Origin: Aurantiochytrium sp. KH105
Lineage: Eukaryota; Sar; Bigyra; Thraustochytrida; Thraustochytriidae
Length of the DNA: 64,000 nt
Direction: 5' to 3'
Assembly (NCBI GenBank): GCA_003116975.1
Contig: BGKB01000074.1
Location: 124,001 to 188,000 of the forward strand
Shown piece after piece: positions 16,504 to 43,195 of the stretch (positions are counted from its first letter, which is position 1; each line of letters begins with the position of its first letter). Made by a program: the position numbers and the translations under genes. The notes beneath the pieces were generated by a model. It made no database searches, was not told the origin of the DNA, and worked only from the letters and a program-made list of their open reading frames with translations.

Positions 16504-17786
16504 CGTTGGTCTTCCTTCTCCCCGCCACACAAGCACACGACCAACCGACCGACGCGCCCACGGACCTCGACCTCGCGCGCTCTGTCTGCGCCTGTCCTCC
16601 GGCGCCGCTCCTCGCTCGGGCAGCCGCTCAATGCGTCGCTCAATGCGTCGCTCAATGCGTCGCTCGCTCGCTCGCTCGCTCGATCGGGGTCTACTTCTCC
16701 TCCGCCAACTTTTCCGCGGCCGCGTGCGCCTCCTGCTGCTCGCCCCCTTTCCGCACAGGGACGCCCGGGCCCCGTCCCCCCGGGGTGAATGTGCAATCAT
16801 GATGACGCGAGCGCCGCCGCGCAGACTGGCCCGCGTGCCCCCCGCGGGGGGCGCGCCGACCGCCCCCGCCGCGGGAAGGAGGGGGGCTTATGGGGAGTCC
16901 GCGCCGCGGTGATGCGCCGCGCGGACTCGCGAGGTAGAGCCCCTTAATCGGGAGGGGGGAGGGGGGAGAGGGGAGGGCGGCCGCGATCGCGGGGGGCGGC
17001 GGGGGAGTTGCGGGGATGATGGCGTCGTCACGCCTCAGCGCAGAAGAAGTGAGACTGACGTGGAGAAGTTCATTTCGAGGTTGGTGGCTGTGATGAAGCA
17101 CGGCATGGGCGAGGTCCCTTCGAGCGCCGACCTGACGCGCATCCTCCGAACGAACTCGGTGCTGCGTTTTGGATGCGAGTCAAGGTCAAGCTTCACATCG
17201 ATCATCAGCTGCAGATCAGCAGCACTGCAGACTTCGTCAGGACTGGGGACGAGGGAGGAGAAGAAGCGGCTGCGGCTGTGGCGTGAAGGCTGCAAAGCTT
17301 GGAAGGAGATGTGAAGCCCGCGCATTCTTCGGGGTTGGCTACTACCACTCCCGCCCGGATGCCGGAACCAAGGGGGCGCGGGAAGTACGAAATGAAGACG
17401 ACGATGGAATGTTTGTGGTTATTTCATACCTACGAAGGTCGCCGCAGCCGCAGCCGCAGCCGCTCCCGCGGACCGTGAATGCGATGGCGTGGCTTATTAC
17501 TGTTTGGAAACCGGGGTGATGGCAGCTGGCTGCTGCTGCAGCTGCAGCTGGCCGCAGAAGCTGGAGTCGCTTGTTACGTGGCGATGATTGCGACCTGGAG
17601 CTGCAGCTCGGCCTACGAGGATTCCGATGATGAAAGAAGCTGGATGCTGCTCCTGCTGGTGGTGGCGGTTGCCACGGCTGCAGCTGCTGCTGCATTGCAT
17701 GCGACAGCGAGCCACGGAGACTGTGGTCAAAATCGGAAGGAAAAGATGCGGCTGTTCGTGCGACCGCCGGGCACGAGGTCCTCTGC
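16504..17786. other. Intergenic region with an ambiguous small coding candidate
   Basis: Very GC-rich from 16504 to 17030. At 17035-17325 both strands read like coding sequence: the reverse frame has AADLQLMIDVKLDLDSHPK, one forward frame has ISRLVAVMKHGMGEVPSS, and another forward frame has RVKVKLHIDHQLQISSTADF ending at a TGA near 17285. I could not decide between them, and none matches a family I know. A forward open frame across 17479-17790 precedes the LRR stalk antisense and is not supported. Confidence 0.3.
16626..16683. repeat. 12-bp tandem repeat grading into (TCGC)n
   Basis: Three exact tandem copies of TCAATGCGTCGC followed by five or six TCGC units, in the upstream region of the mitochondrial-type gene. 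Confidence 0.85.
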
Positions 17787-20661
17787 TCATTTTTCCAGAA
17801 ATGCCGCTGTCGGGTTGACGGCCGCGACGCGCTGGAGACGAAGTCGATGCTGGCGATTCATGAAGAAGAACCCCGAAGAGACGCCAAGCACGCTTGCAGC
17901 GCAGAGAGGGACAAGAACTGCAACACGCATCGTTACTGTGGCTGGCGGCGCCTCTGTAGGGCTCACCGTCGGGCTTGCTGTCGGGCTCATTGTTGGGCTT
18001 GCCGTCGGGTTTGCCGTCGGGCTCTTCGTAGGACTCTTTGTTGGGCTTGCCGTCGGGTTTTTCGTGGGACTCTTTGTCGGACTTGTGGTCGGATTCTTCG
18101 TGGGACTCTTTGTCGGACTTGTGGTCGGATTCTTCGTAGGACTCTTGGTCGGGCTCGTGGTCGGGCTTGACGTTGGACTCGTGGTTGGAGTTGTGGTTGG
18201 GCTCGTCGTCGGATCCAACGTCGGACTCATCGTCGGGCTTTCGGTTGGACTTACGGTTGGACTCTGCGTGGGACTCATTGTCGGGCTCGTCGTGGGGAGC
18301 ATGGTAGGGCTTACAGTTGGCGAATCTGTTGGACGCGCCGTCGGAGCCGTGGGGCTCACCGTGGGAGAAGCAGTTGGACTGTCCGTTGGCGGACAGGCTG
18401 GAATATCGGCGTCCAGCGTGACCGTGCCAATGTGGCTTGTATCTGGTTGGTCGCCACAAAGTTCGTTGCTGGTTGCATGCAATTGGACCAGGCTCATGCC
18501 GGTCAGAGCGTTCGGAAGCTTCGTGAGAAGATTGCTTGTCATGTGCAGCTGGACGAGATTTGTCAACGCAGAAATTTCGTCTGGGATGGAAGGAATCTCG
18601 TTGGATATAGCATTGCTTTGTTCAAGACAAAATAGAGAAAGAGTCATCAATACTCTAAGGTCAGAACTCCGTTCCACTTGCCAAAGGTGAAAACGATAAA
18701 TTCAACGTACATGACGAGCAGTCCCGTACTCTGAAACAGGTCAGGGAAAGCAAGCAAGCTATTATACTGCATTGATCTGTTGGTGGTGGGAGAATTACAA
18801 GTCCAAGGTGATGGGGTGTGTGAGTCAACGGTGTCCTCAGGTAAACATCTCCCTTGCTTGTCAGAATCCCATACTTACAAGTACTGAAGTGCCGGGCTGC
18901 TTATTTGAGGGATCTCAGGAAGATCGTTGTAGCTAAGACCCCTGTTACGCCAAACACCACTCTTTTGGTGAGTATACATTCTATGGTCGCGTCATCTATT
19001 GCCATGACTTACAGTGATCGCATCGCAGTCAAAGAGGTAAAGAGTCCGCTTGGAAGCGCTGTGAGCGCGTTGCCGTCGAGGCCTCTGCGCGACGTGAAGT
19101 AGACGCGTTAATCGTTTGCGAGACTCGTAAGATGTCTGCTAGTATGGACTTCATACGGACAACGTACAGCTGTGTGAGCGCAGTGAGAGCCGACAAGCTA
19201 CTGGGGACTGTTGGGAGGTCATTTTGGGCAAGGTCGCTATGGATTGGCATGTGAGTGTTGATTCCAATTTGGAAAAGCATTTAGATTGTTCGCACGTACA
19301 GGCTGATGAGATTCGTCAAGCCAGACATTTCCGAAGGAAGTGTGGTGAGTTGATTCGCACCGAGGCCCCTGTATGATATTTATTTGAAAGTAAAACACGT
19401 GTGTGTGAGTCCCTTACCCGTGTGAAATTAAGGCTTGCACGTGTTTGACTTACAAAAATCGCAGATTGCTCAGCACAAGCAGCTCGCCTCCAATCTTGGT
19501 CAGCTGGTTACCTTCCAGCGCGCTGTGAATTCAATTTGAGATAGGGGTCAGCATTCAGACGTTCTTTATTTACTCCAGAAAGGCCTGCAGCGTGGCTTAC
19601 TTCTCAAACGTACAGGGTTGTGAGCGCCTTCAGGTTCATCAAGCTCACTGGGGTCGTGAGGAACGAGTTGTAGTTTAGCTCCCTGCGAATATTTCGAATT
19701 GAATGTTAGATACAGCGGTGTCCTGATTCTACAAAATGTAGACTATGATGGAAATAAACTCACAAAGAAACCAGAGAACTCAAGGGTGCAAAGGCGCCAC
19801 TGGGGAGATCCGAGAGCTTGTTGCTCCGCAGACCTCTGCGACACAGATTGCCTTTGTCAGCAAGGATGGAATGTTCACCACTGAATCCTTTGAAAAGATA
19901 ACGTACAGACTGGTCAGCGCCGTGAGGGCACTCAGCGCACTCGGCACTTCGAGAATGGAGTTGCTTATAACGTCGCTACGAGTTTTGTTGTTAATCAGTA
20001 CGTCAGCGATTCGTTGCGACACTGGCTTCCACTTCTCGCCAAAATCATTTTTAACGTACATTGCGATGAGACCTGTGAGTGCAGAGATGCCATCTGGGAT
20101 CGAAGAAATCTGATTGACACCCAAGAGCCTGGATGTACATACATGTCTGGTCAGATGAAGAGCAAGCAAAGTGCCTGGTGTCAGTTGTAATCAACGTACA
20201 GTCGTTGTAGGTTGGTTAAGCTTAGAATCTCCGGAGGCACGTCCGTGAGCTGGTCGGCGATGAGACTCCTGCAAGAATGTGAGTTTCAGATAATAAGAAT
20301 CCCCGGCAGTAAGTTTGCCAAACAACCCAAAAAATACCTACAGGTATGTCAATGTCGTCATGTCGCTTAGACTTGAATGAACAGATGGAAATGTGGAGTA
20401 CTGAATCGACCTGTGCACGTTTCGAAAATCAGTTTCTAATCGACTAAGCAAGTGTCGATCAAGCATGTAAACGTACATGTGCTTTAGATTTGTCACGCCG
20501 GAAAGATCTGGAAAAGTGGTCTCTCCACTCCCGGAAATTGCTGTTGTAGAGGCCGGGATCGACGCAGGATCACACGTCGACCCATTGCAAGTCAGAGCGG
20601 TCGACGTACTCAGGTTAGCTAACGCGATTGCCAAAAGCAAAGCTATTCCCAGGAAATCCAT
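17787..20661 (-). CDS. LRR surface glycoprotein A with Pro-Thr stalk, 14 exons
   Basis: Complete model of 612 residues. Exons on the reverse strand: 20661-20477, 20410-20342, 20268-20200, 20128-20060, 19975-19907, 19835-19764, 19682-19614, 19522-19454, 19368-19300, 19236-19168, 19084-19013, 18941-18879, 18776-18711, 18615-17787. Every intron is 63-102 bp, has a GTACGT-, GTAAGT-, GTAGGT- or GTGAGT-type donor and an AG acceptor, and splits the codon after its second base. Exon 1 holds a signal peptide (MDFLGIALLLAIALANL) and a cysteine pair. The next twelve exons are 63, 66, 69 or 72 nt, each one leucine-rich repeat of the form N-x-L-T-x-L-P-x-x-L-x-x-L-T-x-L. The last exon has two more repeats, a cap with two cysteines (NELCGDQP...DIPAC), a long (PTxS)n stalk, a membrane helix (VAVLVPLCAASVLGVSSGF) and a short basic tail. 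Likely a plasma-membrane or wall-facing adhesion or recognition protein. Confidence 0.88.
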
Positions 20662-22054
20662 GGTCAGTTCTTTTCTCTCTCCGTCTTCTTCTTTCTCTGC
20701 TTCTTCCTCAATTCCGTCAAAGAAAGCACAGAAGGACGCGCGGGCCGCGTCAGGCGTTTCGATTCTGCCGAAGTGAGTCCGTTCGGAGATGTCCGGTGAT
20801 CTCTTTCGTAAACGACATCTCTCTCACTGAAGGAAAAAAAGATTGGTGAAGCTAATTTTTTGAGTGAATTTTGTGCTCGTATTGCGCCTTCGCCTGCCTC
20901 AACGAGACGCGGCTATCTCAGCCGCAACACCAGACTAATTTGGAAACAGACATCATCTAAGCTGCGTCGCCCTCTCTACATCCCCTTCCTTGTCGGAAAG
21001 GGTAGCCGCAGACGGGGCAGCCCTCAATGAAGCCAACGAAAGCCAATCCGCTTGTTCGTGAAGTTCTTCCAAACCACCTGCGTACAGGCCTAGTTTTTCC
21101 GTTGACTCTGAATCCAATCTGCTCTAACAGTCATAGGTGAGCTCCGAGTCCGAGTCGGAGCCTGAGACAGCTCCGCCCTCAGTGCCAGTGAGCTTTGAGG
21201 TCCGGAGTAGCCTGGCGGGGCGTTTTCGTCGTTGACAAGCCCGACAAGAATGCAAAACAGGCCTGACTGATGTAACGGCCCACCCTGTACACGACACTGT
21301 GCACATCATTCGTTGACAAAGCTAATGGCGGCAACGTAACGAAAGCGGCAAAGAGCATCAACGCCACCACCAGCAACGGCTCAGAGAGTACCAGGACCAG
21401 CACCACCAGCACCATCGGCGTCAGAAATTCCGAGCTGCTGACTGCAGCCAGCCGGCAGCGCGGACATCAGAACGCGTGAAAGAATGATGCGTGATCTTGG
21501 AAATCAAAGCAGTGCGATCGACCAAAAGAAAGACAAGACAAAGACAGTAGTAATCCAGTAAGAGGCAAAAGAAGCGATCTTGTTTGGGATCCAAAAAATG
21601 CCAGAACCGCAGCGGAGAATCGAGCAGAGAGCCTTTGCCTGCGATCGATCGGGTGCCACCCCACAGTGCAGAGGCGAGCGAAGAGTCGTTGGAAGAAGGG
21701 ATGGAGTCTGAAGATCATGTTGAAAGGCGAGGCTAAATGCCCAGCGATGCAAAATGCGTCTTTGCTGTTTACTAACTTGAGAAATGCTTCATTCATTGCA
21801 TTCGTATTCGATGGATTCGACCTTTACGAGAGATGACTTGCAGTGAAAAAGAAAGCAGACATTGACGAAGTAGGTTAGGTCAAGGCCAAGGAACGAAAAA
21901 GGCGTCTTCTTGACGAATAGTGACGGTCTCGGTCAAAATCGTAAAGCATTACGCTGCTATCTAAAGAAGGCAAGGATTGATGGTTGACGATGTTCTGGTG
22001 TAGATGAAGCTACCGGGCGGCGACTCATCCAACGGCTTTCGCGCAAGACAAGCC
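20662..22054. other. Spacer between the two LRR genes
   Basis: 1.4 kb holding the 5' flank of gene A and the 3' flank of gene B. No frame longer than about 110 codons and none with family features. AT-richer than the window average. Confidence 0.5.
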
Positions 22055-24241
22055 CTAGTTTGCTGGAAATGCAGCTGTCGGGTTCACCGCGGCCACGCGT
22101 CGACGTCGTAGACGATGGCGACGATATAACCATGCTCCACCCGCAGAAGCAGCAAGCATGCAGCTCGCGCCCAGAGGGGCGTACATGGCAACCTTTTCAC
22201 CCACAACACCCGTCGGGCTTGCAGTTGGACTGGGAGACGCACCAATCGACAATGGATGCTCCGTTGCGAGACTCGCAGGATCTGTTGTCGGAGTCGAACC
22301 TCCACGACTCGAAACTGTCGGCTCTGTCGTGGGTAAAGTAGGGTCAGCGGTCGGCGATGCTGTCGGACTCTCTTCCGAAGGCCTGGAAGTCGGCATTGCT
22401 GTCGGAGATCTTGTTTCTGGTGCGATTGTTGGATTCACCGTGGGCATCTTCGATGGGGTTTCTGTTGGCGCTAATGTCGGACTCGTCGTTGGACTTGCCG
22501 TCGGGCTTTTTGTTGGGCTTATCGTCGGAATTGCAGTCGGGCTTGCTGTTGGGCTTGCTGTCGGGCTCATTGTTGGGCTGACTGTTGGCCTCGTCGTCGG
22601 AGTTACGGTCGGGCTAGCTGTTGGACTTGTCGTAGGGCTCACGGTCGGGCTTGTTGTTGGACTTGTCGTAGGGCTCACGGTCGGGCTTGCTGTTGGGCGA
22701 GGCGTTGGGCTCGCCGTCGGGCTTGCTGTCGGGCTCGCCGTTGGTATCGCTGTCGGGCTTGCTGTCGGGCTTGCGGTTGGGCATGTTTCGGGGATATCAC
22801 TGTCGTAATAAAGATCAGCCTGTAAACCACTAGTGTCCGGTTGCTCCCCGCAGAGAGGATTCCCGTAAAAGTCCAAATATGCCCAAGACCATGAGTAGGC
22901 GAAACTCGTAATTGACTCCGGAAGTTTCGTCAAAGCGTTGTTTCCTACGTTCACATACCCCAACGAATTGCAGTTTGCCAATTCTCCAAAGCTCTCAGGC
23001 AGCTCGGTGAGACGATTTGAAGACAGATCTAGATTCCAAAGGTCATACAACCTGAAAAGGCTTGCAGGGACTGTCTCGAGCAAGTTATCGTAGAGATATA
23101 GCTCCCAAATCATTTGGGGTACAGCTTCAGAAAGCTCCGTGAGACGGTTGTTTGAGAGATCAAGGTAGTATAAATACACCAAACGATCGCTGGCAGGAAA
23201 GTAGGTCAGGAAGTTGTTCTGGAGATTCCTTTAAAGTGCATGATGCTGCGTTAGTGATGGTGGACGCCGTAGGTTCTTCCAGTCTCGCTATCAAGAAGGC
23301 GTTTACCGAGCCAACTCATAATTTCATTGCATCACGTACAGGTAGTTAAGGTTCGAATTTTGGAACAACCCTTCCGAGAGGTGCGTTAATTGGTTTGATT
23401 GGAGATATCTTGTTTTCGAGAAAATTAGTTGCATAAACAAGATGTGACTGCCCCAGGCCTGAAAACTTACAATTGCGTCAATTCTGGGTGCGTCATATTG
23501 GGATACTCCGTGAGCTTGTTTCCTTTGAGATTTCTAATCAATCATCTCATGTTTGCGTTAGTAAAGGACAGAAAGCTGATGGAAACGCGGCAACATACAG
23601 ATAATCTAGATGTGAGAGCTCAGACAAACTCTCTGACAAGGCTGTGAGCTGATTTGAAGCAAGTCCCCTTCAGCATTCTCCATCAGATCAGCGTCATTCT
23701 CGTCATTCTCGTCACTCCCGTCACCTCAGGCCTTGGTGGACTTACAACCAGCCTATGTTTGTCAGCGCAGAGAATCCCTCTGGAAGAGCGGTGAGCTGAT
23801 TGTCATTTAAGTTCCTGCATAACAATTATGTAAGTCGATAAACCAAAGCCATTTGCTCAACAGAGCAATCCTTACACGAGGGGTACTTACAGGAAAGTCA
23901 GAGCCGTGAGTGTGGTGAGCACGTCGGGAACTGACGTGATGCCACCAGAGTACAAATTACTGTCAGAGGATAGCACCTGTCAGCGGCCTGAACGCTCGAC
24001 TTGACCGAGAATATATGTGTGGTCAGAATCGTCGGAGTTACACTTACAGATGACGCAAATCCGTCAAGCCCGAGAGATTTGGAAACTCGCTCAAGCCATT
24101 GCCAACGATTCGAGTTGTCGATGAGGGGATGGCGTTGGGATCGCATGAGGAGTCACCATTGCACGAGAAAGACGCGGCATTTGCGCAGTGTATGCTCAAA
24201 GCAGCAACGGCAAGTATCGCTCTCCATCTTGTCGAAGCCAT
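22055..24241 (-). CDS. LRR surface glycoprotein B with Pro-Thr stalk, 7 exons
   Basis: Complete model of 568 residues, paralogue of protein A 1.4 kb away on the same strand. Exons: 24241-24048, 23959-23891, 23814-23746, 23667-23599, 23533-23471, 23408-23340, 23228-22055. Introns are 62-111 bp and all interrupt the codon after base two, as in gene A. Exon 1 encodes a signal peptide ([20 protein letters not shown]) and [18 protein letters not shown], matching ALTCNGSTCDPASIPAS in A. Exons 2-6 are one LRR each (63 or 69 nt). The last exon carries about four more repeats without introns, a cap (NPLCGEQP...DIPETC), a (PTxS)n stalk, a membrane helix ([20 protein letters not shown]) and a tail ending [12 protein letters not shown], nearly the same as [12 protein letters not shown] in A. 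Role as in A; the shared cytoplasmic end suggests a common partner or sorting signal (inference). Confidence 0.88.
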
Positions 24242-28565: not shown

Positions 28566-31394
28566 ATGGCACACGCTGCTGCCACGACGGGCGACCTTCG
28601 GAACAACCTGGAAAAGCTTCGCTCGGAGCTGCGTGGTACTTGTGTCAAGGACGAAGACGTTGACCTCGAGGCTGTTGCCCGGGGCGAGCCCACGGGCTTT
28701 CTCCCTCTGCTGCACAAGGTTCTTCTCGACGACTCGCTCCATTTAGCAAGGTACCTTTCCGAGAGGGGTTACCAGCTGTATCCTATCCAGGATCGACCCT
28801 TTTTGGAGGGAGTCTTTCGCGTCGTGCGCAATGAATTCAGTTACCGGCCTTCACTTACGCTGGAGCAGTTTCTCTCCTCGGGTTTTGCGGAGCGAAAAAT
28901 CATTTTTGTTTGCGACGTGGTCAAGCTTTGTCGTCGCAAAGCCGATGAGCTCGTACGTTTGCAAAAGGCAGCGGGTAATTCACGAACCCCTCCCAGTGCT
29001 TCGAGTGAGACCTCCTCGCCTGCTGCAGCCAGTATCAATACCAACGTCAATGGCAATGCCAAGTCCTCTTCCTCCTCCGCCACGGCCAATGGCGTGGGCC
29101 GAGGCGGCCTTCGTAACGATCGGCTTGACGAGGCCGATCATAGGCCTCTCGTCAAGGGCGTTCGAAGTAGGGATGATGACGACGAGGGAGAGGTTGAGAT
29201 TGAGGAAGACGCCGATTTTGCTTCCTCCTTAGGTTCTGGACTACCAGATGCCGTGGGGCGATCCCTTCGTCAACGCCGTACCGTGCCCGTCATTGCAAAG
29301 CCAACGCGCAAAACAGCATTGCGGTCCTCGGGCGAACCGCGAGCAACGCGCAGGCAACAACAAAACGGCATGGCTGAAGCCAATCACACAAGCGCGTATC
29401 ATCAATCTGATGCAGCGCATGAACCTTTCAAGAACGGGAGCAGCAACGGCGTAGGGCGGACGCCCAATACTGCTGCTTTACATCATCATCATCATCATCA
29501 TCAACAACAACAACAGCAACATCAAGTTGTTAACCATCACCATCATGGTCATTCGCAACCCCATCCGCACCCTGGCGCGGCGGCCTCATCGCACGCGCCA
29601 ATTTTTCCATCTCATACTGCTCAAGCGCATGCTGCGCTCACACCAGGACAAATATCGTCAAGCAATGGCGCCAAAGAGACCACGAGCGGGGGCTCGTGGC
29701 GCTCGAAACGGACGCTCACGCTGCAAACCGGAGGGGACGGTAGTAGCAACGGCACCACGCCCGCAAATGGAAATGGCCCAGAAGAACTCAAGAGTCCTAC
29801 CTCCAGCTCTGGTCCAGTGTCCCCAGTGTCCATCACATCGGCTGCTTCTGCGCCTGCCGTCTTTCGCCAGGCACCCATACGGGTCAAAGCTGACATGCGG
29901 GGCCATCTGCACCCACACACGCATCAGTTCCAGCATCATTTGCAAACACATGCAAGTAGCCAGGGCTCGTCGACCGCGACCGGAGACGGCGATGCGTCGG
30001 GGGATCATCCTCATGCTGGAAATCCACCTTATTTGAATGTGAATAACGCTGCGCGTGGTCTGGAGTGTTGGGTGAGCTCCCCGCCCCAGCTTTTGGACCG
30101 CCCAAAACGCAAGGAAGCCCTCACGGCCCAACTCAACAAGCCGCATACCTCGCCGCGCATCCACCACGGCAGTCGGGGATCCTCGCCTTCAAGCATGCAC
30201 CGCACCAACAGCGTAGGCAGTCTTTCAGCGGGATCAAAGCGCGGCGGCAGTGTCGCGGCGGCTGCGGCGATGATGGCGCGCCCCAAGTCCGGGCAAAGCA
30301 GTCCTGTATCTGCCACCAAGGTGGCACCGATGTCGGCTGCCTTTGGAACTCGCGGTCGCGCCGCCTCGAGCCAAGGCTCCGCAAGCCCTCATCAGCTTGG
30401 CGCCACTTTGGCCGCCGGTTCGCGCTCTGGTCGCTCTTTCTCTCCGGCCAAGGATCGCTCTGGGGGCGGCAACATTGCGCGCAAATTGAAACTCCCTTCG
30501 GGGTCGAGCGCCAACGGGGCGGCCTCTTCACAAATTTCAACGCCCAGCTCCCAGCAAAGTGGTCGACCTGCTGGGTTTACTCGCGCCGTGGACGCCGCGG
30601 CCGCATCCGCCGCTGTGCAATCGGCACGCACACCGATACCCGAGCCGAACCACGAGCAAGACCAGCTGCGCCAGCACAGCCAAGCGCACGCTCAACAGCA
30701 AAGTGAGCTCAAGCAAGACCAAATGGCTGCCGCCATGTCGACGCAAGCAGGACAACCTGACCTGAGCATGCTCGTGACGCAAATGAATAAGATTGCGATG
30801 GCCTTTGAAAGCGTGGCGCACATTCCAGAGCGTTTCGACGCCATGGAAAAGCGCATCAACACTGCCCTGCAGACCATGGACCGGCGCATCTCCGAGATCG
30901 ACTCACGCGTGCGGCAGCAAGTTGAAGACTCATCGTCGAATGGTGCTTCCTCCATTGCGAGCGCGTCGTCGCAGTCTTTTTCAGCCGTGCCTTTTTCAGC
31001 CGTGCCTCAACATCACAGACTCGTGTCCGAGCCTTCTGCTGCCACCACGGTGGAGTCCCTCGAGTCAGAATTGGGTCATTCTGTCACCTCGCGAGAAGCG
31101 AGAGGTACGCGTCATGCGACCTCGAATCACACGGCCTCCGCTGCACGCGGATCGGCCTCGAATGGGCCGATCTCTGCACCGAGGGTGCTTTCTTCAGCAT
31201 CGGGTTCTAGCAGGTCTGGAGCACGTAGGACTGCTTCGCATGCGCGATCCAGTGCCTCGCAAAGCCGCCGTCCCGCGACATCGTCCTCGGCAGACGCTGT
31301 GTCACGCGCCACCGAAGGTATCGACGACTTTATCAAGGTCATCGAGGAGCGTTTCCGTGAAACAGAAACAGTCTTGGCGGAGTCCGAAAATTGA
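28566..31394 (+). CDS. CEP44: CEP44-family centrosomal protein
   Basis: 942 residues, single exon. Residues about 9-135 match the CEP44 domain as I know it: TGDLRNNLEKLRSELRG, then GFLPLLHKVLLDDSLHLARY, LSERGYQLYPIQDRPFLEGV, FRVVRNEFSYRPSLTLEQFL and GFAERKIIFVCDVVKLC. CEP44 binds microtubules and, in animals, helps convert centrioles to centrosomes. The remainder (about 140-900) is disordered and rich in Ser, Ala, Gln and Asn, with a His run then Gln run near residues 305-320 and a second His cluster near 325-340, so it is much longer than animal CEP44 (about 390 residues). Two short predicted helices lie near 725-780 (SMLVTQMNKIAMAFESVAHI; RINTALQTMDRRISEIDSRV) and at the C-terminus (IDDFIKVIEERFRETETVL). 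A centriolar role would suit a flagellate life stage (inference). Confidence 0.88.
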   Translation: MAHAAATTGDLRNNLEKLRSELRGTCVKDEDVDLEAVARGEPTGFLPLLHKVLLDDSLHLARYLSERGYQLYPIQDRPFLEGVFRVVRNEFSYRPSLTLEQFLSSGFAERKIIFVCDVVKLCRRKADELVRLQKAAGNSRTPPSASSETSSPAAASINTNVNGNAKSSSSSATANGVGRGGLRNDRLDEADHRPLVKGVRSRDDDDEGEVEIEEDADFASSLGSGLPDAVGRSLRQRRTVPVIAKPTRKTALRSSGEPRATRRQQQNGMAEANHTSAYHQSDAAHEPFKNGSSNGVGRTPNTAALHHHHHHHQQQQQQHQVVNHHHHGHSQPHPHPGAAASSHAPIFPSHTAQAHAALTPGQISSSNGAKETTSGGSWRSKRTLTLQTGGDGSSNGTTPANGNGPEELKSPTSSSGPVSPVSITSAASAPAVFRQAPIRVKADMRGHLHPHTHQFQHHLQTHASSQGSSTATGDGDASGDHPHAGNPPYLNVNNAARGLECWVSSPPQLLDRPKRKEALTAQLNKPHTSPRIHHGSRGSSPSSMHRTNSVGSLSAGSKRGGSVAAAAAMMARPKSGQSSPVSATKVAPMSAAFGTRGRAASSQGSASPHQLGATLAAGSRSGRSFSPAKDRSGGGNIARKLKLPSGSSANGAASSQISTPSSQQSGRPAGFTRAVDAAAASAAVQSARTPIPEPNHEQDQLRQHSQAHAQQQSELKQDQMAAAMSTQAGQPDLSMLVTQMNKIAMAFESVAHIPERFDAMEKRINTALQTMDRRISEIDSRVRQQVEDSSSNGASSIASASSQSFSAVPFSAVPQHHRLVSEPSAATTVESLESELGHSVTSREARGTRHATSNHTASAARGSASNGPISAPRVLSSASGSSRSGARRTASHARSSASQSRRPATSSSADAVSRATEGIDDFIKVIEERFRETETVLAESEN

Positions 31395-31782: not shown

Positions 31783-34500
31783 TCATGACATTCTCTTCCT
31801 TCCTTCCTCCGTACTCCCCTGGTGCGGCTGATTTTCCTCATCAATCATATCTTCCATTGCCTCCAGGAGCTTCGACTCACGGTTCTCGACCAAGAGCAAT
31901 TGCGTGCCCAGCTTCTCCAACGCTGTGCGCAGCGCAGCTTGATGCGGTGCCATAAAGGCGGCCTGCCGGCTTACCAGCCCATCGAGCCGGCGCAAGAGAA
32001 CCTGTACCCCGCGAGAGATTCCCGTTCCATACGGATACGCCTGCGGATCTTGCTTGCGCGTGTCAAGCCTTTGCAGCACAGCGCGCTTCTCGTCTTCATT
32101 CGCAATGCGCGAAAGAAATTTGCGTATGGCAATGGTTTCATCTGACTGCCTGACGCGCGAGGCCTCGAGCTCGTCTCGCATCGCAGAGAGAGCAGCTCGC
32201 TCCGCCTCCGCATCTCTGACTCCAGACTCAAGATCATTCATACGTTCGCGACGTGTGTTCAGTTCGTTCTCAATCTCGCGCATGCGTTCATCGAGCTGTT
32301 TCTCCTGCTTACGCAAACTGTCCATGAAGCGTTGTCTCGAGTCGAACTGCGGCACGCGCCTGCGCAATGGCTCGAGAGCTTGGTCCAAGCCTCGGATTTC
32401 GGTCTTTAGCGAACGCGCAAAATCTCGGGCTACATTGACGACAACAGCCCCACGCTCGGACTCGAGCAAGACGGAGTCGGCGCGTTCCCGTGCGGCCTCG
32501 ACACGTGACAAGCTTTGTCGTGCCCATTCGAGGTCGTCTTCGAAGAGCCCCATGATTGAGCCAACACGCGACTTCTCGCGCATGTCGCGCGCCCATGCAC
32601 GTAGCTGCGCATTTTCGCGCTCGATCTGCTGCTTTTCCGCAAGCTTTTTCCTAGTCATGCGGGCCTCTTCCGCTTTGATGGCCTCAATCTCCTCTTGCAG
32701 TTGCCTTGCCTCGGCTTGTTCCTCGTTCGTCATCAAGTCGACAAGCGTGACTTCAAGATGGTCCTCATGGTATGCTTTTGCTACATTCGCGGCATGGTGC
32801 AGGTTTTCAAGGACAGCCTGGCGCATTCGAGTTGGAGTTGAGGACTTCTTCTCCAGTGCCAGCTCCCGAAGTGCCTCCCCAACGCGGCCAGTCCCACTAT
32901 TGTCTCGAGGATCATGGTCTTCCGACTCCAGATCCCTGGGCCCGGAGGTGGCAGTGTCTTCATCTGCTTCGCCGTGTACGTTTGCATGGTCGTGGTGGTC
33001 TTTTTCTCTCCCAATGTCACCATCTTCGTGGCTTACGGCAGAAGTTTCTGTTGCTATCTGCTCCCGCGCGCGTGAGAAGGGGTCATCGCCGGGGCCGGTA
33101 GCTTCTGCTCCGATACGGGTCGCGACCTCGGCGAATGGAACAAGTCGTATCGGAAACAGCGTATTCGAGTCTCCGGTTTCCCGCATGCACGCAGTGTTGA
33201 CAAGGCTGGCACACGTGGCCACACGCATTGTGGCCACATTGGCCTTGTAGTCATCCAAGGAATCTGTCAGTGTTGCCAGACAAAAGCATTTACTGTTTGT
33301 GGCGAGGAGACGGGCAAGCGTACGAGTGAGCGGCGAGTCCCGCGCCGCGCTGAGATTTCCTGAGCTTGCACGTAATATCTCGAGGTGGGAAAGTTCGCTG
33401 AGTAGACGCTCGCACCCAAGCAAATGTCGATTGAGCTGAGCATGACGGCGCTGACCTTCTCGACTCTTGGGTTTGGGTCGCGAATGGCCTGCCAAATCTA
33501 CAAAATGGCCCACCGAAAGTGTTTTGGAATCGTGCTGTGCGATGGCCACGCGCACAAAAGCATGAGACCTATTTCGCAAAGCTTTCAGCGTGTCATGGCG
33601 ATCGTGCGATCTCTCTGTCCAATTTTGGCTTGAATACCGGGCGGCCTCCAAAATTTGAGACGCTTCGCCTAGGTTACGACATGAGACGCCCACAAAATCG
33701 TCCTTGCGCAAACGCGAAGGATCCTGAGCATGCGACGCCAAGAGATCAACGACCTTGCCTTGAGCCGATATTTCCCAGCACGAAAGGCTAACTGAAGTTT
33801 CGCTATCGCGATCAAGCCCGACATTTGCAAAAATGAGCTTGAGTGACTGCCATAGCACCGAGTCCCGTGCACTTGAGTCGGGCAGGGGGGCGTCTGGCAC
33901 CATCAAGGGCTCACGAAGCGATCTGGACCCCAGCAAGGTGTGTGTCTTGCCTGCGCCGGACTTGCCCCAGCTAAAGACGGTCGTGTTGAAGCCCTTGAGC
34001 AGCCATGCGTTGACAATGTTTTCCGCAAGCGGTTGACTGACATCCGTGTCGCTCGCAAGACGCGAGAAACCGGCACTACATCGGAATTTCTGCAGCTTGC
34101 GCGAGTCAGGTTGCCGAAGAACCACGTCGCGACCGCCTTCAACCCAGACATGCGTTCTCTCATGCTCGCCATCGTGGGCGCCACGTGCTGCAGCGAGACG
34201 GAGCGCGTCGACATCGACGTCGCCCCTCCGCGCAAGATCGTCGAGGAGCCTTTCCGATTTCCGCAATTGCTCCATGCCCCGCGTGCTCGCCCTCGCCGCG
34301 CCTTGGCCGCTGCTCGCCTTTATTTGCGTCGCTGTTGTGGCATGCGTCACGCGCACGCGGACATAGGTTTCCAAGGGCGCCACGCGAGCAGCGCTGTCCT
34401 GGGACCCGCCGAGTTCCTCGAGTCGCGCCGCCAGGCCCAGGAGGCCCTCCGGCAGCGCCGCGAACCCAAAGTCCCTCGCATGCCCGGCCGCGGTCTCCAT
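31783..34500 (-). CDS. Divergent kinesin-like motor protein with coiled coil
   Basis: 905 residues, single exon. Motor domain at about residues 45-445: VRVRV start strand, P-loop GKSGAGKTHT (179-188; usual GQTGSGKT), switch I NRSH (310-313; usual SSRSH), switch II FVDLAGHS (333-340; usual DLAGSE) and the alpha-6 region SPLTRTLARLLATNSKCFCL, then NVATMRVA. The switch II glutamate is replaced by Ser-Arg and the KxxKEGxxINxSL region is degenerate (SREGQRRHAQLNRHLLGCERLL). An unusual N-terminal 45 residues and a 70-residue insert precede the P-loop. From about 560 to 880 it is a long coiled coil (EEQAEARQLQEEIEAIKAEE; LRKQEKQLDERMREIENEL). It is probably a microtubule motor or a motor-derived microtubule binder with altered ATPase. 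I could not assign a kinesin class. Confidence 0.85.
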   Translation of the reverse strand: METAAGHARDFGFAALPEGLLGLAARLEELGGSQDSAARVAPLETYVRVRVTHATTATQIKASSGQGAARASTRGMEQLRKSERLLDDLARRGDVDVDALRLAAARGAHDGEHERTHVWVEGGRDVVLRQPDSRKLQKFRCSAGFSRLASDTDVSQPLAENIVNAWLLKGFNTTVFSWGKSGAGKTHTLLGSRSLREPLMVPDAPLPDSSARDSVLWQSLKLIFANVGLDRDSETSVSLSCWEISAQGKVVDLLASHAQDPSRLRKDDFVGVSCRNLGEASQILEAARYSSQNWTERSHDRHDTLKALRNRSHAFVRVAIAQHDSKTLSVGHFVDLAGHSRPKPKSREGQRRHAQLNRHLLGCERLLSELSHLEILRASSGNLSAARDSPLTRTLARLLATNSKCFCLATLTDSLDDYKANVATMRVATCASLVNTACMRETGDSNTLFPIRLVPFAEVATRIGAEATGPGDDPFSRAREQIATETSAVSHEDGDIGREKDHHDHANVHGEADEDTATSGPRDLESEDHDPRDNSGTGRVGEALRELALEKKSSTPTRMRQAVLENLHHAANVAKAYHEDHLEVTLVDLMTNEEQAEARQLQEEIEAIKAEEARMTRKKLAEKQQIERENAQLRAWARDMREKSRVGSIMGLFEDDLEWARQSLSRVEAARERADSVLLESERGAVVVNVARDFARSLKTEIRGLDQALEPLRRRVPQFDSRQRFMDSLRKQEKQLDERMREIENELNTRRERMNDLESGVRDAEAERAALSAMRDELEASRVRQSDETIAIRKFLSRIANEDEKRAVLQRLDTRKQDPQAYPYGTGISRGVQVLLRRLDGLVSRQAAFMAPHQAALRTALEKLGTQLLLVENRESKLLEAMEDMIDEENQPHQGSTEEGRKRMS

Positions 34501-34997: not shown

Positions 34998-37900
34998 TTA
35001 TGAAGAAAAGGGCTGACGATGCTGGTAAAAGGAGCGAGGGAAAAAGCTTTGCTCGTTGACTAGATCGCGATAAAACTTGATGCGGATCTCGCGGTCCAAA
35101 ATTTGGTGGCCCTGAAGCTTGGACATGGCCCGGCGCGCTTCGCGTTCAGTAACATATGTAATGTAGAGAGATCCTCGCGCAGCAGATTGTGTTGCGTACA
35201 AGACTTCGCCATGGGACCGGAACTTTTCTTCGAGCTCGGCAAAGTCATCGGCGGAGGCCTCGTAGGGAATGTTGCGAGCTACAATTGTGCAACCTTCTTC
35301 GGGAACGCGATTAATGGCTGGGCTCTGAGGAATGTCGCCTGAGAATCCAGGATGCGCTGGCCACATGACCATGTTTCGCTGATCCATCCACGAAGGTGCC
35401 ATGGGTGGGTACGTTTGTGTACCCTTGACTTGCGGTGCCATCGTCTGCGTCGCATGATGCTGGGCTTGGGATGCTTGCGTGCCACGCTCCTTCTTGCCGG
35501 CTGCACCCTTTTGCTGCTGCTGCTGCTTCTGTTGCCCTTGGCTTTGCGCCTCCGAGAAAGTATGGCCTTCCCCTTGACTTGAACCGGCTGGAGAGACCTG
35601 CGGATACCCAGGATATCCGTAGCCAGCGGGGGCAGACATGCCGGGATAGCCGCCAAAGGGCATGGGCATCGGGAAGCCCATGGGTCTCGGGCTAAGACCT
35701 TGCATGAACTGCTGTTGCGCAGCCGACGGACTGAGCTCCGGAGACGATGTTGCAGACGTCCTTGCTTGGGACTCTTGGTTCGAAGACTCACTCGTGGCAG
35801 CACTCTTCGCGGAAGCCTCTTTGCCCTGTTCATCACTCGAGGTTGCACCCGCAGACGCAGACTTGCTCTGGTCTGTGCCCGTCGCAAATGTTGGTGTGCC
35901 AGGCTGCATGTATCCGAGCGGACTCACGAGATGCATGGGCAGTGACATCATCTGCGAGTTGTTAAATCCCACCGGAATAAAGGGCACGAAGCCAGAAATA
36001 CCTCCGTACGGCGGTACAGCCATGGGACCAAAACCGTGTGCCCCCATACCACCGGGAGGCATCCCCGGCATGGGGCCAGCGTCCGGCGATGGTGCTTGCG
36101 ATGCACTTGGGTGCACTTCAATGGCGAGCAAGTCGGAGAGCTGGTTTGGACGATGCATGAGAAGCTCATGCAGCTGCCCGAAGCGTTGTTGCACCATATA
36201 CATGTTAAATGACCCCGAGCCAAGGCAGTGGCTCCGGCGCACAGGGTCACGCACGCAAAGGGGCGAAAGTTGCTGGAGCAAACCATCGGAATCACGTCGT
36301 CGGCGCTGCACACGAATCGAACCACGACGCAAAATTGAGAGCTCGAGCTGTTCGAGGTCGAGACCACCACGCGATGGTCGCGAGAACATTTGCAAAAAGC
36401 CCATGAGAAGCACACCCACATTGACTGTCCCACGGCAGTCGTTTTGGATATATTCGCGCAACCACTTGCGGCTCTCGCGCGTCGCGCACTCTACGACTTG
36501 GGCCGCCTTTAGCAGAATCTCAGCGTCTGAGGAAGCAGCTGTAGCTTCGTCCCCTACCGTAGTACGGTCATCATCGCTGGCAGCGTTGCTATCGAGGTCG
36601 CCTTGAGAGTCCTCGTCGTGAAAGTCATGGAGAGAGACCTCATCGTTGTTGTTGTTGTTGTTGTTGTTGTTGCTGGCAGTGAGATGGTTCAGGCCAGTGC
36701 TGCTCGTGTTGCTGCTGATTGTGCTCGCACGGCTGGCAGCGCTGCCGACGCTATATTTGCGGTTGTTGCGGTGACGACGCTGTCGTCGCTGCTGTCTCTG
36801 TTCGAGATCCTCAGGTTTGTACAAAGGAGGCAAATTGTCGAGCTCAACCATTGGGAAGCGCGACCGCGGTGTTGCGGGTGCCGACATGGGTTGCTGCAAA
36901 GGCGATCCCATCAGGCTGGGCGACGGAATCGTTGAGGGTGGCCCTGCCGACGCCGGCGACCCTGCTTGCCGCTCACTTGTGGACATTTGCGAAAAGGACG
37001 ATGGTTGTTGTTGCTGTTGTTGATGCGAGTTGGCCGTTGCCGCAGGCGTGGAGGGCGCGGATCCGCCGATAGGTGTGACACCAGAGGCCGGGGCGGCCGT
37101 CGAAGGGTGGGGCGCCGCCATGCGTGGCGGCGGGAGCATGGGATTCATCCGAGGCATCTCGCCAGAGATGACAAAGCCCACACGCAAGAGAAAGAAGACT
37201 ACGAGCGTTGTCAAAGAGTACGAGCCAAGGCCTCCCTTGTAGACATCATGGAGGTCGTACTCGCGCAAAAGGCGCTTAAGAATAAGCACGAGGGGCCGCA
37301 GTACGCCGGAAAGTTCGTCGGTAAGCTGCAAGACGAAGTCACGGGCTTGCAGACCATAATGGTCACTCGTGCGAAAGGAAATATCAACGGGAATCTCGGG
37401 TCCCGAAGCCGCGCCATTTGAAAGCATATTGACGGCCTTCATTTTGATGACCGGCATTGACGAGCTCTTAATGAGCTTAATCGATTTGCACCATGGCTGC
37501 GCCTTGAGCGCCGAGTGGACGGCGCACATGTAGGTGAGGAGCTGGCCACGGTCTAAACTCATATCTACGGTGGGGTCTGCAAAAGGCAGAAAGGGCGGCG
37601 GAAAACCATACATGCGCTCTTGGGGCATGGGATACATATTCTGCGGCATGGAAGGAAATCCACCATTTTGCTGTTGCTGTTGCTGCTGTTGCTGTTTTGG
37701 CGGTTGCGACTGGGTCTGCACCTGAGCATGCGCAGTCGCCTGCGGGACTGTTTGCGTCTCGGAGGCTTTGAGTGAGGACGTCCGAGGGTGTCGCGGAGGA
37801 TGTCCACTGGCCATGGTTGCCTTGTGTTGTTGTTGTTGTTGTTCGGCCTGACCCAGTGAACGCTGCGCCGTAAGCTGACCAACGGTCTGGTCAGCAGACG

Positions 37901-39566
37901 TCTTGGCGGGCGTAGAGGCTGGTCGAGCAGGCGTGCTGGGCTCGAGCTGTGGCGAAGTTGACGCGGGTGACACCTTGCCAGCAGCACCCTTGGCGCGATC
38001 AGCCCACGAAGCGGCCTCGAAATTGGTCGTGCTCTTGCTCTTTCGTGGCGCAGACGCACTCGGGACGGACGCAACATCTGGCGTCTCAGCCTTGGGCGCA
38101 GCCTCTTTCTCTCCCGAGGCATTAGTCTCCTTGGCGGATGACACGGTAGCGTCTGCACCAATTTCAGCCTTAAGAGAGGCCGCGGGGGCGACGGAAGATA
38201 CACTAGCAACAGAGGAGGCATCGAAAGATCCACGCGAGACAAAAGAGGCCGCCCGCATGCGCGCATACTCGTTCATGAGAGCGTGGCCATGATGAAGAGT
38301 GATGAGCAGATCCAGATCACTCTGCCCCGGGAGCCAAAGCCCAGTGGCAAAGGAGCCATAGATTTGCACTACCGCGCTTGCATAAATGTTGCGGACGACT
38401 TCGCCGACACGACGCCAGATCATGGTGGCATCGTCGCCGGAATAAGCGGACATATCATACTCATGGTTCTCGGGGTCATTGGGCATGGCTCGTTGGCGGA
38501 CATTGAGCGCCTTGATGACGTTATCCAGAAAGCCATCAATACAAATATTAATGACGTTCAGGCATGGGCTGGAAGCGGACGAATCGTTTTCCTCGACAAC
38601 AATAGATAGCGATTTGCGGGGTCGCTGGTTCGAAGCCGCGTCAGCGCCCTCATCGTGAGCCATCGCATTCACATTATCGTGCTCGCTATTGTTGTTGTTG
38701 CCCTTGCTGGGTCCGGGCATCTCGTTGGGTGTCGTGCTTGAGTCGGCAACACTAAGTTGTTGCACAGCGTTTTCAAGTCTGCGCAGCGCCGCGCTCCCTG
38801 TGTCCGATGGAGCCGTCCCCGTTGAGAAGCCGGAAGCGTAGCCAGACTCCTCATTTGTATGCATGGACGAGACGCTACTCGCCTCGCTATGGCGTCCGAT
38901 TTCCGACTGCGCGCAGTCATCGGGAAAAAGAGCGGTCATGACAACTTTGTTTGTGGCATCGCCTGCATGCTGCTGTGAGACGTGCGACGACACAGAAGAT
39001 GGTGAATGCTTGGTAGAAGTGCGAGGGACTCTCTTTTTCTGGGTGCGTCCACGAGGTCCTGCACGACTTTTCATGACTGGTGTTCGACATGCACGGAGCG
39101 CCTCCACTGTTTCTTGCGAGAGAGGGATGCAACGATTTTCGTCCCAGATCTCGTCTTGCGAGACACTCGAGTATAAAAGAGACTGAAATACATCTCGTGC
39201 GATGGGGGCGCACCTGCGCACGCGACGAATGCGAATCTGCGCTATCAATGGGGTCTCTTCGGGAGCAGAAGTGGTGCACTCTGTCGCAGCCACGGCGCTT
39301 GGCATCTTGACGAGGTGCTCGATCTCGCGGCGACCTTCTGAGGCAGCCTCGAATCCCGTATGCAGCTCCTCTAGCTCGGTGTCGAGAATGAAAACGGCTG
39401 TTCCGGGTCGTACTGACTTTACGATCTCAAGATTCTCTTTCGTTGCACCGAGAAGCATTCGGTCCTCGGTGGACTCGAGTGTCGCTGCGTTGCATTTGAA
39501 TAGGATGCCAACGGGCGTGTTGGCATCAGTGTGCGCCATTGAATCGTGTGACGAGGAGCTCGCCAT
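34998..39566 (-). CDS. DCD domain - Trf4-type noncanonical poly(A) polymerase - RRM fusion
   Basis: 1522 residues in one exon. (1) Residues about 17-135 look like a DCD domain: GILFKCNAATLESTEDRMLL, EIVKSVRPGTAVFILD, LHTGFEAASEG, and a late PLIAQIRIRRVRRCAPIARDVF. (2) Residues about 340-800 plus 1015-1135 are a Trf4/PAPD5-like nucleotidyltransferase: YGSFATGLWLPGQSDLDLLI (403-422; metal ligands D417 and D419), the third acidic residue in IPVDISF (D728), the central domain RPLVLILKRLLREYDLHDVY with GGLGSYSLTTLVVFFL, and the PAP-associated LCVRDPVRR. About 300 residues of low complexity, with a glutamine run, split the catalytic part, and another 200 with an Asn run split the central domain. 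(3) Residues about 1425-1500 form an RRM (CTIVARNIPYEASADDFAEL; GSLYITYVTEREARRAM). Expected: adds A tails to nuclear RNAs for decay or processing, with RNA binding built in. The catalytic triad is intact. ATG at 39566 places the DCD at the true N-terminus. Confidence 0.85.
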   Translation of the reverse strand: MASSSSHDSMAHTDANTPVGILFKCNAATLESTEDRMLLGATKENLEIVKSVRPGTAVFILDTELEELHTGFEAASEGRREIEHLVKMPSAVAATECTTSAPEETPLIAQIRIRRVRRCAPIARDVFQSLLYSSVSQDEIWDENRCIPLSQETVEALRACRTPVMKSRAGPRGRTQKKRVPRTSTKHSPSSVSSHVSQQHAGDATNKVVMTALFPDDCAQSEIGRHSEASSVSSMHTNEESGYASGFSTGTAPSDTGSAALRRLENAVQQLSVADSSTTPNEMPGPSKGNNNNSEHDNVNAMAHDEGADAASNQRPRKSLSIVVEENDSSASSPCLNVINICIDGFLDNVIKALNVRQRAMPNDPENHEYDMSAYSGDDATMIWRRVGEVVRNIYASAVVQIYGSFATGLWLPGQSDLDLLITLHHGHALMNEYARMRAASFVSRGSFDASSVASVSSVAPAASLKAEIGADATVSSAKETNASGEKEAAPKAETPDVASVPSASAPRKSKSTTNFEAASWADRAKGAAGKVSPASTSPQLEPSTPARPASTPAKTSADQTVGQLTAQRSLGQAEQQQQQHKATMASGHPPRHPRTSSLKASETQTVPQATAHAQVQTQSQPPKQQQQQQQQQNGGFPSMPQNMYPMPQERMYGFPPPFLPFADPTVDMSLDRGQLLTYMCAVHSALKAQPWCKSIKLIKSSSMPVIKMKAVNMLSNGAASGPEIPVDISFRTSDHYGLQARDFVLQLTDELSGVLRPLVLILKRLLREYDLHDVYKGGLGSYSLTTLVVFFLLRVGFVISGEMPRMNPMLPPPRMAAPHPSTAAPASGVTPIGGSAPSTPAATANSHQQQQQQPSSFSQMSTSERQAGSPASAGPPSTIPSPSLMGSPLQQPMSAPATPRSRFPMVELDNLPPLYKPEDLEQRQQRRQRRHRNNRKYSVGSAASRASTISSNTSSTGLNHLTASNNNNNNNNNDEVSLHDFHDEDSQGDLDSNAASDDDRTTVGDEATAASSDAEILLKAAQVVECATRESRKWLREYIQNDCRGTVNVGVLLMGFLQMFSRPSRGGLDLEQLELSILRRGSIRVQRRRRDSDGLLQQLSPLCVRDPVRRSHCLGSGSFNMYMVQQRFGQLHELLMHRPNQLSDLLAIEVHPSASQAPSPDAGPMPGMPPGGMGAHGFGPMAVPPYGGISGFVPFIPVGFNNSQMMSLPMHLVSPLGYMQPGTPTFATGTDQSKSASAGATSSDEQGKEASAKSAATSESSNQESQARTSATSSPELSPSAAQQQFMQGLSPRPMGFPMPMPFGGYPGMSAPAGYGYPGYPQVSPAGSSQGEGHTFSEAQSQGQQKQQQQQKGAAGKKERGTQASQAQHHATQTMAPQVKGTQTYPPMAPSWMDQRNMVMWPAHPGFSGDIPQSPAINRVPEEGCTIVARNIPYEASADDFAELEEKFRSHGEVLYATQSAARGSLYITYVTEREARRAMSKLQGHQILDREIRIKFYRDLVNEQSFFPRSFYQHRQPFSS

Positions 39567-42262: not shown

Positions 42263-43195
42263 TTAACAGCAATTTCCTCCAACGCAACAATTTCCACAAC
42301 CTGTGCAGCAGTCTCCACAACCTTCGCAACAGTTTACACAACCTCCGCAGCAGTCACAGTCGCCATCGTTCCCGCTGGATCCAACGCCAACCTGCGCCTG
42401 CCCACCTCGTACGGCGGCATCGATAGTACTACCACCACCACCACCACCACCACCATCTCCACCACATTCACAGATGGCACACCTAATGCAGCAAACGCAA
42501 GTCCCCAAGCAGCAAACGCAAGTCGCCTGACAGCATTGACCGGTCTCGTTGCAGCAATGTTCGGTGCCAGTGCAGCAAGCTTCGCCGCAGTCAGCATGCT
42601 CGTCAACATCACATGCAACTTGGCAGCATCCGGTAAAGCAGCATTCGGTCATAGTGCCTGACAGGATGCAGCAAGTTGAAGTGCACACGAAACAAAACCC
42701 GGGAAGCACATCGCAGAAATTAACGGTGGCTAGTTCGCAGCCTCCCATGTTATCCAGACAACATACTTCCGTGCCAGAGCAGCAAGTTGCCCATTCTTCG
42801 GTACAGGTATCAAACCAGTTGCCGTCGCTGCCAAGATTGTGACAAAAGGAAATCGCCCCCGCGCATAGCACAGCAACAAAGCCTTTACAGCAGCAGCACC
42901 AGTCATCGCAATTGTCTGAGCAACAATTGTGGCAGCAATCGTTATTGTTGTCAGGCCCTCCACCAGGTCCACCGCCGGCGAAAGCGACAGTCGCTTCTCT
43001 TGACATATCATTGTGCGCCTTCACACCAGCTTCCAATACGTCCGTCGATTGCGGGAGACCACTGAACTCTGCAATGATCTCGCCTCTTACCTCGCCTGCG
43101 ATCTCTTCCGCGATGGTCTTTCCGGGCGACTTTTTCCTGGCCTTGGCGACGAGAAGGTCTGCGAAGGAAAGAATACACTCGACAACCGCGGCCAT
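42263..43195 (-). CDS. Hypercysteine protein, C-terminal part of a CH-domain gene
   Basis: 310 residues from ATG 43195. Residues 1-20 (MAAVVECILSFADLLVAKAR) match the last helix of a calponin-homology domain whose first part lies directly upstream in the same frame (separate entry). After a linker, residues about 85-310 contain 57 cysteines by my count, mostly as CC pairs: DWCCCCKGF, then units like CCSGTEVCC, CCTGTEHCC, CCQATCVCC, a glycine run (about residues 250-258) and a dense tail CDCCGGCVNCCEGCGDCC. Such spacing suggests metal-thiolate clusters, as in metallothioneins, or a disulphide-rich structure; no signal peptide is visible, which favours cytosolic metal binding (inference). I know no family with this pattern. 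The frame is intact over its whole length with codon use like its neighbours. Confidence 0.7.
   Translation of the reverse strand: MAAVVECILSFADLLVAKARKKSPGKTIAEEIAGEVRGEIIAEFSGLPQSTDVLEAGVKAHNDMSREATVAFAGGGPGGGPDNNNDCCHNCCSDNCDDWCCCCKGFVAVLCAGAISFCHNLGSDGNWFDTCTEEWATCCSGTEVCCLDNMGGCELATVNFCDVLPGFCFVCTSTCCILSGTMTECCFTGCCQVACDVDEHADCGEACCTGTEHCCNETGQCCQATCVCCLGTCVCCIRCAICECGGDGGGGGGGGSTIDAAVRGGQAQVGVGSSGNDGDCDCCGGCVNCCEGCGDCCTGCGNCCVGGNCC

Follow-up and report, generated by a model that had tools for sequence, protein, structure and literature searches.

A predicted RNA-tailing enzyme of Aurantiochytrium sp. KH105 that joins a DCD domain, a Trf4-like nucleotidyltransferase core and an RRM

We have identified in Aurantiochytrium sp. 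KH105 a gene, P0001, whose single open frame links a DCD domain, the nucleotidyltransferase core of an RNA-tailing enzyme and an RRM. The gene lies at 34998..39566 (minus strand, stop codon included; 1522 aa) of the window, by which we mean the whole 64,000-nucleotide stretch of DNA that was analysed. The frame is constrained, the domains are identifiable, the catalytic triad is in place, Trf4 is the nearest solved relative of the core and a histidine occupies the nucleotide-selecting position. The scenario that we favor, tentatively and with somewhat less than even confidence, is that P0001 is a terminal RNA nucleotidyltransferase in which a Trf4-like core carries its own substrate-choosing domains. 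As predicted from these sequence features, the N-terminal DCD would most likely bind a modified base in RNA, the C-terminal RRM would hold the RNA, long flexible inserts would connect the domains, and the core would extend the RNA so bound by a few untemplated nucleotides at its 3' end. Such a tail could mark modified RNAs for decay or maturation, and the histidine (His1113) suggests that it would contain U. If this were true, a single polypeptide would couple the RNA-modification code directly to 3' tailing, with the recognition of modified bases and the addition of untemplated 3' tails linked in one protein. To our knowledge, it usually takes separate proteins to connect these two levels of RNA control.

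The domain assignments are of unequal strength. The preliminary description of this DNA had placed a DCD within residues 10-140, and the Pfam scan bears this out with a match to Dev_Cell_Death (PF10539; E=1.6e-14, 54.2 bits against a cut-off of 27.8) at residues 20-137 (39156..39509, minus strand); by sequence, no PDB match to the DCD was convincing, the best having an E of 1.3. The first half of the nucleotidyltransferase core comprises residues 335-434 (38265..38564, minus strand; GSFATGLWLPGQSDLDLLI) and contains D417 and D419. Here MTPAP-like_central (PF22600) matched residues 380-430 (2.9e-7, 31.1 bits against a cut-off of 27; the scan of the genome gave the palm 26.1 bits, slightly short of this cut-off) and NTP_transf_2 (PF01909) scored 26.3 bits against 21 (9.6e-6). 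The GS motif, the DxD and the third Asp of terminal nucleotidyltransferases (TENT) are present (GS at 404, D417, D419 and D728), and the split nucleotidyltransferase proposed earlier is found with its three aspartates where they had been assigned. The palm is split by a low-complexity insert (residues 435-670; 37557..38264, minus strand) that lies between D419 and D728 and in which A, S, Q and P abound. Beyond it, residues 671-805 (37152..37556, minus strand) hold the second half of the palm, with D728, and the start of the central domain, with GGLGSY; this rest of the core (about 697-804) was found by alignment to Trf4 (3nyb), Cid1 and GLD2. A second low-complexity insert, supported by composition and by comparison of two gene copies (see below), covers residues 806-1024 (36495..37151, minus strand) and includes a basic run, RRQRRHRNNRK at 927, which we take to resemble a nuclear signal.

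The PAP-associated region (residues 1025-1150; 36117..36494, minus strand) was also part of the preliminary description and stands in one scan and not in the other: PAP_assoc (PF03828) reached 23.5 bits in the genome scan, just above the cut-off of 22.6, but only 17.4 bits (0.0055, residues 1049-1113) in the scan of the protein. The C-terminal RRM that had likewise been claimed (residues 1431-1495; 35082..35276, minus strand) is confirmed marginally, as RRM_1 (PF00076) scored barely above its cut-off (22.3 against 20.7 bits; 1.2e-4); in the PDB, the RRMs of nucleolin and SF3B14 matched it at 1.7e-4 to 2.9e-3, and its RGSLYITY presumably corresponds to RNP1 with one aromatic kept. Single-sequence structure models had a mean pLDDT of 35.7 for residues 1-160 and 39.6 for residues 333-1155.

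When the joined core was searched against the PDB, Trf4 was the best match (4.3e-14), followed by GLD2 (1.9e-4), Cid1 (1.5e-3), URT1 (0.015) and TUT7 (0.43). To place P0001 among the tailing enzymes of its own genome we used six-frame profile searches, in which PF22600, PF03828 and PF01909 gave 17, 14 and 15 matches, respectively, all of them lower bounds. The matches collapse into at least nine tailing-enzyme genes, eight seen in pairs and one (gene D, contig C26) seen once. One copy of each of the nine was scanned with Pfam: A, B, C (with CCHC and CCCH fingers), D, E, F, G (with TRAF-type fingers), H, which is the canonical poly(A) polymerase, and P0001, which was the only one of these single copies to have either a DCD or an RRM. 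The seven further non-canonical genes are L039 (A), L041 (B), L043, L045, L046, L047 and L050 (G), and five of the seven group with P0001 and Trf4, an apparent expansion. A CCA-adding enzyme was considered for P0001 and rejected, the match being 17.9 bits and far below the cut-off of 281.3.

P0001 is not the Trf4 orthologue of this organism. We rejected that assignment on finding gene B nearer to Trf4: B matched 3nyb, which we take to be Trf4 (the entry is listed as Poly(A) RNA polymerase protein 2), at E=1.9e-45 and is likely to be the orthologue, pairing with Trf4 at 91/92 in a tree of 11 cores, although a tree of 10 cores did not resolve the pairing. The larger tree comprised eight of the genes (H left out) with Trf4, URT1 and the C-terminal module of TUT7; in the smaller one E was also dropped. 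In the 11-core tree P0001 fell with B, D, E, F, G and Trf4, split from A, C, URT1 and TUT7 at 100/100, on a long branch (1.75) whose position within the Trf4 side was not resolved. In the 10-core tree the split was still 100/100, and P0001, with a branch of 1.97, joined D, F and G at 84/94. By pairwise score its nearest paralogue is G, and both have a PGxSDLD loop that is longer by one residue. Constraining P0001 to sit with A, C, URT1 and TUT7 lowered lnL by 3.43, and a position at the base of that TUT/URT1 side was not rejected in an AU test (p 0.232); a position inside the group of C, URT1 and TUT7 was rejected (lnL 54.81 lower). The earlier term 'Trf4-type' is thus apt insofar as Trf4 is the nearest solved relative and the grouping on the Trf4 side is strong, but it says too much given that the base of the TUT/URT1 side was not rejected and that B is the likely orthologue. 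Compared with Trf4, Trf5 and PAPD5 (TENT4), P0001 shares the core sequence, the catalytic triad, the GGLGSY and PAP_assoc segments and the tree grouping, while adding the DCD, the RRM and large inserts in the palm and central domains and having His for Asn in the nucleotide-recognition motif.

In noncanonical tailing enzymes the nucleotide is selected by a loop after the PAP-associated region. This loop contains in P0001 the motif DPVRRSHCLG (residues 1107-1116; 36219..36248, minus strand), and as DPVRRSHCLGS it aligns without gaps to DPFEISHNVGR of Cid1 and DPGDESNNISR of Trf4. His1113, which is also His in the second copy of the gene, falls at the position of the UTP-selecting His of Cid1, TUT4/TUT7 and URT1, where Trf4 has Asn. 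The designation 'poly(A) polymerase' in the preliminary description is therefore not supported. The form DPxxxxH is shared with URT1 (DPFETSHDLG) and the C-terminal modules of TUT4/TUT7 (DPFDLNHNLG); the N-terminal modules of TUT4/TUT7, which we assume to be inactive, have DPFSVKRN and DPYSVKRN, and CutA has EPFNDGRN, with Arg at the place of the His. Among the genes of this genome the residue is His in P0001 and C, Asn in D, F and G, Gln in B, Leu in E (where the alignment is uncertain) and Tyr in A (L039), in which it stands where URT1 carries the selecting His.

There is precedent for this position deciding the nucleotide. According to passages of two papers, His here confers UTP use (PMC7498324, PMC6053540): Cid1 becomes a poly(A) polymerase when its His336 is replaced by Ala or Asn (PMC7498324), and inserting a His into GLD2 gives a TUTase (PMC6053540), although Arg to His in CutA raised the use of U without converting the enzyme (PMC7498324). 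The Asn five residues past the third Asp, which in TUT1 (Asn392) touches the O2 of uracil and the ribose (a passage of PMC5467268), is Thr733 in P0001 and is also absent from the other Trf4-side genes here; in this respect P0001 differs from Cid1, TUT4/TUT7 and URT1. Histidine makes up 2.8% of core residues, and one His is, alone, weak evidence for UTP use. Taking all of this together, we consider it about an even call that P0001 uses UTP. If it does, it would be a natural example of an enzyme set apart from Trf4 in its choice of nucleotide by the residue that was mutated in Cid1, GLD2 and CutA.

The alternative that survives best, possible but in our judgment doubtful, is that P0001 is an oligo(A) polymerase of the Trf4 branch that serves RNA surveillance, with the RRM standing in for the Air proteins, as the preliminary description suggested, and His1113 being accidental. 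The rank of Trf4 in the PDB search and the 100/100 grouping would be expected of such an enzyme, the uracil-contacting Asn is missing, and Arg1110 takes the place of the Glu in DPFE of Cid1, a residue which we presume to have a functional role. Set against this are the following: (i) the same genome encodes in B a far closer relative of Trf4 and, therefore, P0001 need not do the job of Trf4; (ii) of the six genes that group with Trf4, P0001 alone has His at the selecting position, the others carrying N (three genes), Q or L (the L of E being uncertain); and (iii) the AU test does not fix P0001 on the Trf4 side. For the U-adding enzyme that we favor, it follows from the tree grouping that His1113 may have been gained independently of the uridylyltransferases, a convergent origin for which the case is left weak by the AU result and by the long branch of P0001 in both trees.

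The other part of our scenario concerns what the DCD does. The domain was named from plant cell-death and stress proteins, and it could be a protein-protein or stress-signalling module with no base reading, as the plant DCD/NRP proteins are usually described. We think this rather unlikely. In addition to the origin of the name, a point in its favor is that the DCD is not slower than the adjoining linker when two copies of the gene are compared (dN 0.015, with 4 amino-acid changes in 123 codons, against 0.011 for the linker; 4 against 5 changed codons). What speaks for base reading is the company that the DCD keeps. In the passages of PMC7641849 that bear on this, Bell, Wolf and Koonin argue that the DCD belongs with the EVE/YTH-like domains and binds modified bases, base binding by the eukaryotic DCD being a prediction there, and report the heterokont DCD inside CPSF30-like proteins. 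A genome search with PF10539, in which all four candidates were scored and which an intron-split DCD could escape, gave only the P0001 pair and a second pair (L037:3654-6329, minus strand, and L038:2984-5641, minus strand) that encodes a CPSF30-like protein with CCCH, YTH, DCD and KH domains (Pfam scan of L037). Judged by their domains, both DCDs found here sit in proteins of RNA 3'-end chemistry, one of them beside YTH and KH, and by analogy the DCD of a tailing enzyme is better seen as a reader of modified RNA than as a stress domain. The tie between tailing and stress proposed in the preliminary description rests on the names of plant genes; base reading would give the DCD a more direct role. 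It is for this reason that we raise the idea of a reader and writer in one protein; in its most specific form, whereby the DCD recognises a modified base and the Trf4-like core, through a UTP-selecting His that perhaps arose independently, uridylates that same RNA, we regard it as unlikely.

The CPSF30-like CCCH-YTH-DCD-KH protein of heterokonts (passages of PMC7641849) is like P0001 in joining a DCD to RNA 3'-end processing; unlike P0001 it has no polymerase and has YTH and KH rather than an RRM, and where the two DCDs align, their identity is about 25%. The same passages describe the DCD joined to a CAPAM-like methyltransferase or to eTudor. There, too, the DCD is on an RNA-modifying enzyme, N-terminally in the CAPAM-like case, but the enzyme and its chemistry are other than those of P0001. 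We also came across a second pair of YTH genes (G000:C33:505306-505611 and C47:369123-369428); these matches make it improbable that the organism has a single YTH protein.

Human TUT1 (TENT1) resembles P0001 in its parts. As described in passages of PMC5467268, TUT1 has an RRM, a proline-rich palm insert between the second and third Asp and a base-contacting His (His549), all of which have their counterparts in P0001, and a passage of a metazoan review calls TUT1 the only family member with an RRM (PMC7988573). It is conceivable, although we consider it quite improbable, that P0001 is the functional counterpart of TUT1, the U6 snRNA uridylyltransferase, in which case the DCD might recognise a modified base of U6. 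The RRM, the His-bearing core and the proline-containing palm insert are common to both, and P0001 is the one gene with an RRM among the nine that were scanned (one copy each). However, the RRM of P0001 is at the opposite, C-terminal end, the uracil-contacting Asn is absent, neither a zinc finger nor KA-1 was matched in P0001 by Pfam at E up to 1, and the 16 PDB matches that the core gave with E no higher than 1 include no TUT1 chains. Any likeness would be convergent. Membership of P0001 in the TUT1 family was rejected on domain order and missing domains; by analogy, P0001 may still work like TUT1 without being TUT1.

Searches for similar proteins elsewhere covered viral, bacterial and archaeal contigs. 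In viral contigs, a search with the whole protein gave 600 pattern-matching stretches and one with a four-row alignment (B, F, G and D) gave 38, with none confirmed in either case; in bacterial and archaeal genome contigs, a DCD alignment gave 143 stretches, again with none confirmed, a result that is silent on other protists because the collection is bacterial and archaeal. In the literature, the passages of PMC7641849 on polymerase, uridyl and transferase name no fusion of a DCD to a tailing enzyme, and no description of one was among the literature matches listed, where the wording 'poly(A) polymerase' may have been missed. Within the searches made, then, a tailing enzyme with a DCD has not been described so far.

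Our reading presupposes that the frame is one gene. It is open for 1522 codons on the minus strand (34998-39566), whereas a plus-strand reading of the same stretch has 30 stops, and a second copy of the gene (L036:2122-6693, plus strand, contig C174), encoding 1524 aa with the same five Pfam families, is also open throughout; the intact 1522-residue frame of the preliminary description is thereby upheld. Length differences between the copies amount to whole residues in the protein alignment. Over 1518 aligned codons there are 124 nucleotide differences (dN 0.0072, dS 0.097), distributed 17/7/100 over the three codon positions, and the third position is in excess in 9 of the 9 segments of more than 80 codons. 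The same is seen in the low-complexity parts: 1/1/20 in the palm insert, 6/3/16 in the second insert, 1/1/18 in the second linker and 4/1/9 in the linker between the DCD and the polymerase (residues 141-334; dN 0.011, dS 0.068), for which there are only 14 differences in all. The first palm segment and the PAP-associated region have no amino-acid differences. By this comparison purifying selection acts across the whole frame, and, given the codon-position pattern overall and in the palm insert, the inserts appear to be translated exons and not introns; the linker between DCD and polymerase is coding as well, judged from its 14 differences. We infer that DCD and polymerase are on a single mRNA. 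That adjacent genes were fused into one frame, or low-complexity introns read through, is hardly credible: low-complexity linker or insert does make up 919 of the 1522 residues (with segment boundaries that we chose), but with the frame open in both copies the codon patterns between them largely reject an artefact of either kind.

The two copies are probably two haplotypes, although a hybrid or an old duplication could also account for a dS of 0.097. Across the host assembly (76 Mb in 367 contigs) the profile matches come mostly in pairs with nearly equal scores, which points to a diploid.

The genes that adjoin P0001 in the window, a CEP44 centrosomal protein (28566-31391, plus strand) and a kinesin (31786-34500, minus strand), are by their sequences ordinary eukaryotic genes with no clear link to RNA tailing. 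Elsewhere in the window, a 310-aa open frame at 42266-43195 (minus strand) is extremely cysteine-rich and had no Pfam match at E up to 0.001. A 566-aa protein at 9607-11304 (minus strand) has a ParA/MinD-like AAA_31 match followed by an acidic stretch, a gene that seemed to us unusual in a eukaryote. Open frames at about 17500-23200 (minus strand) contain leucine-rich and SPTxSPT-like repeats and perhaps encode repetitive surface proteins.
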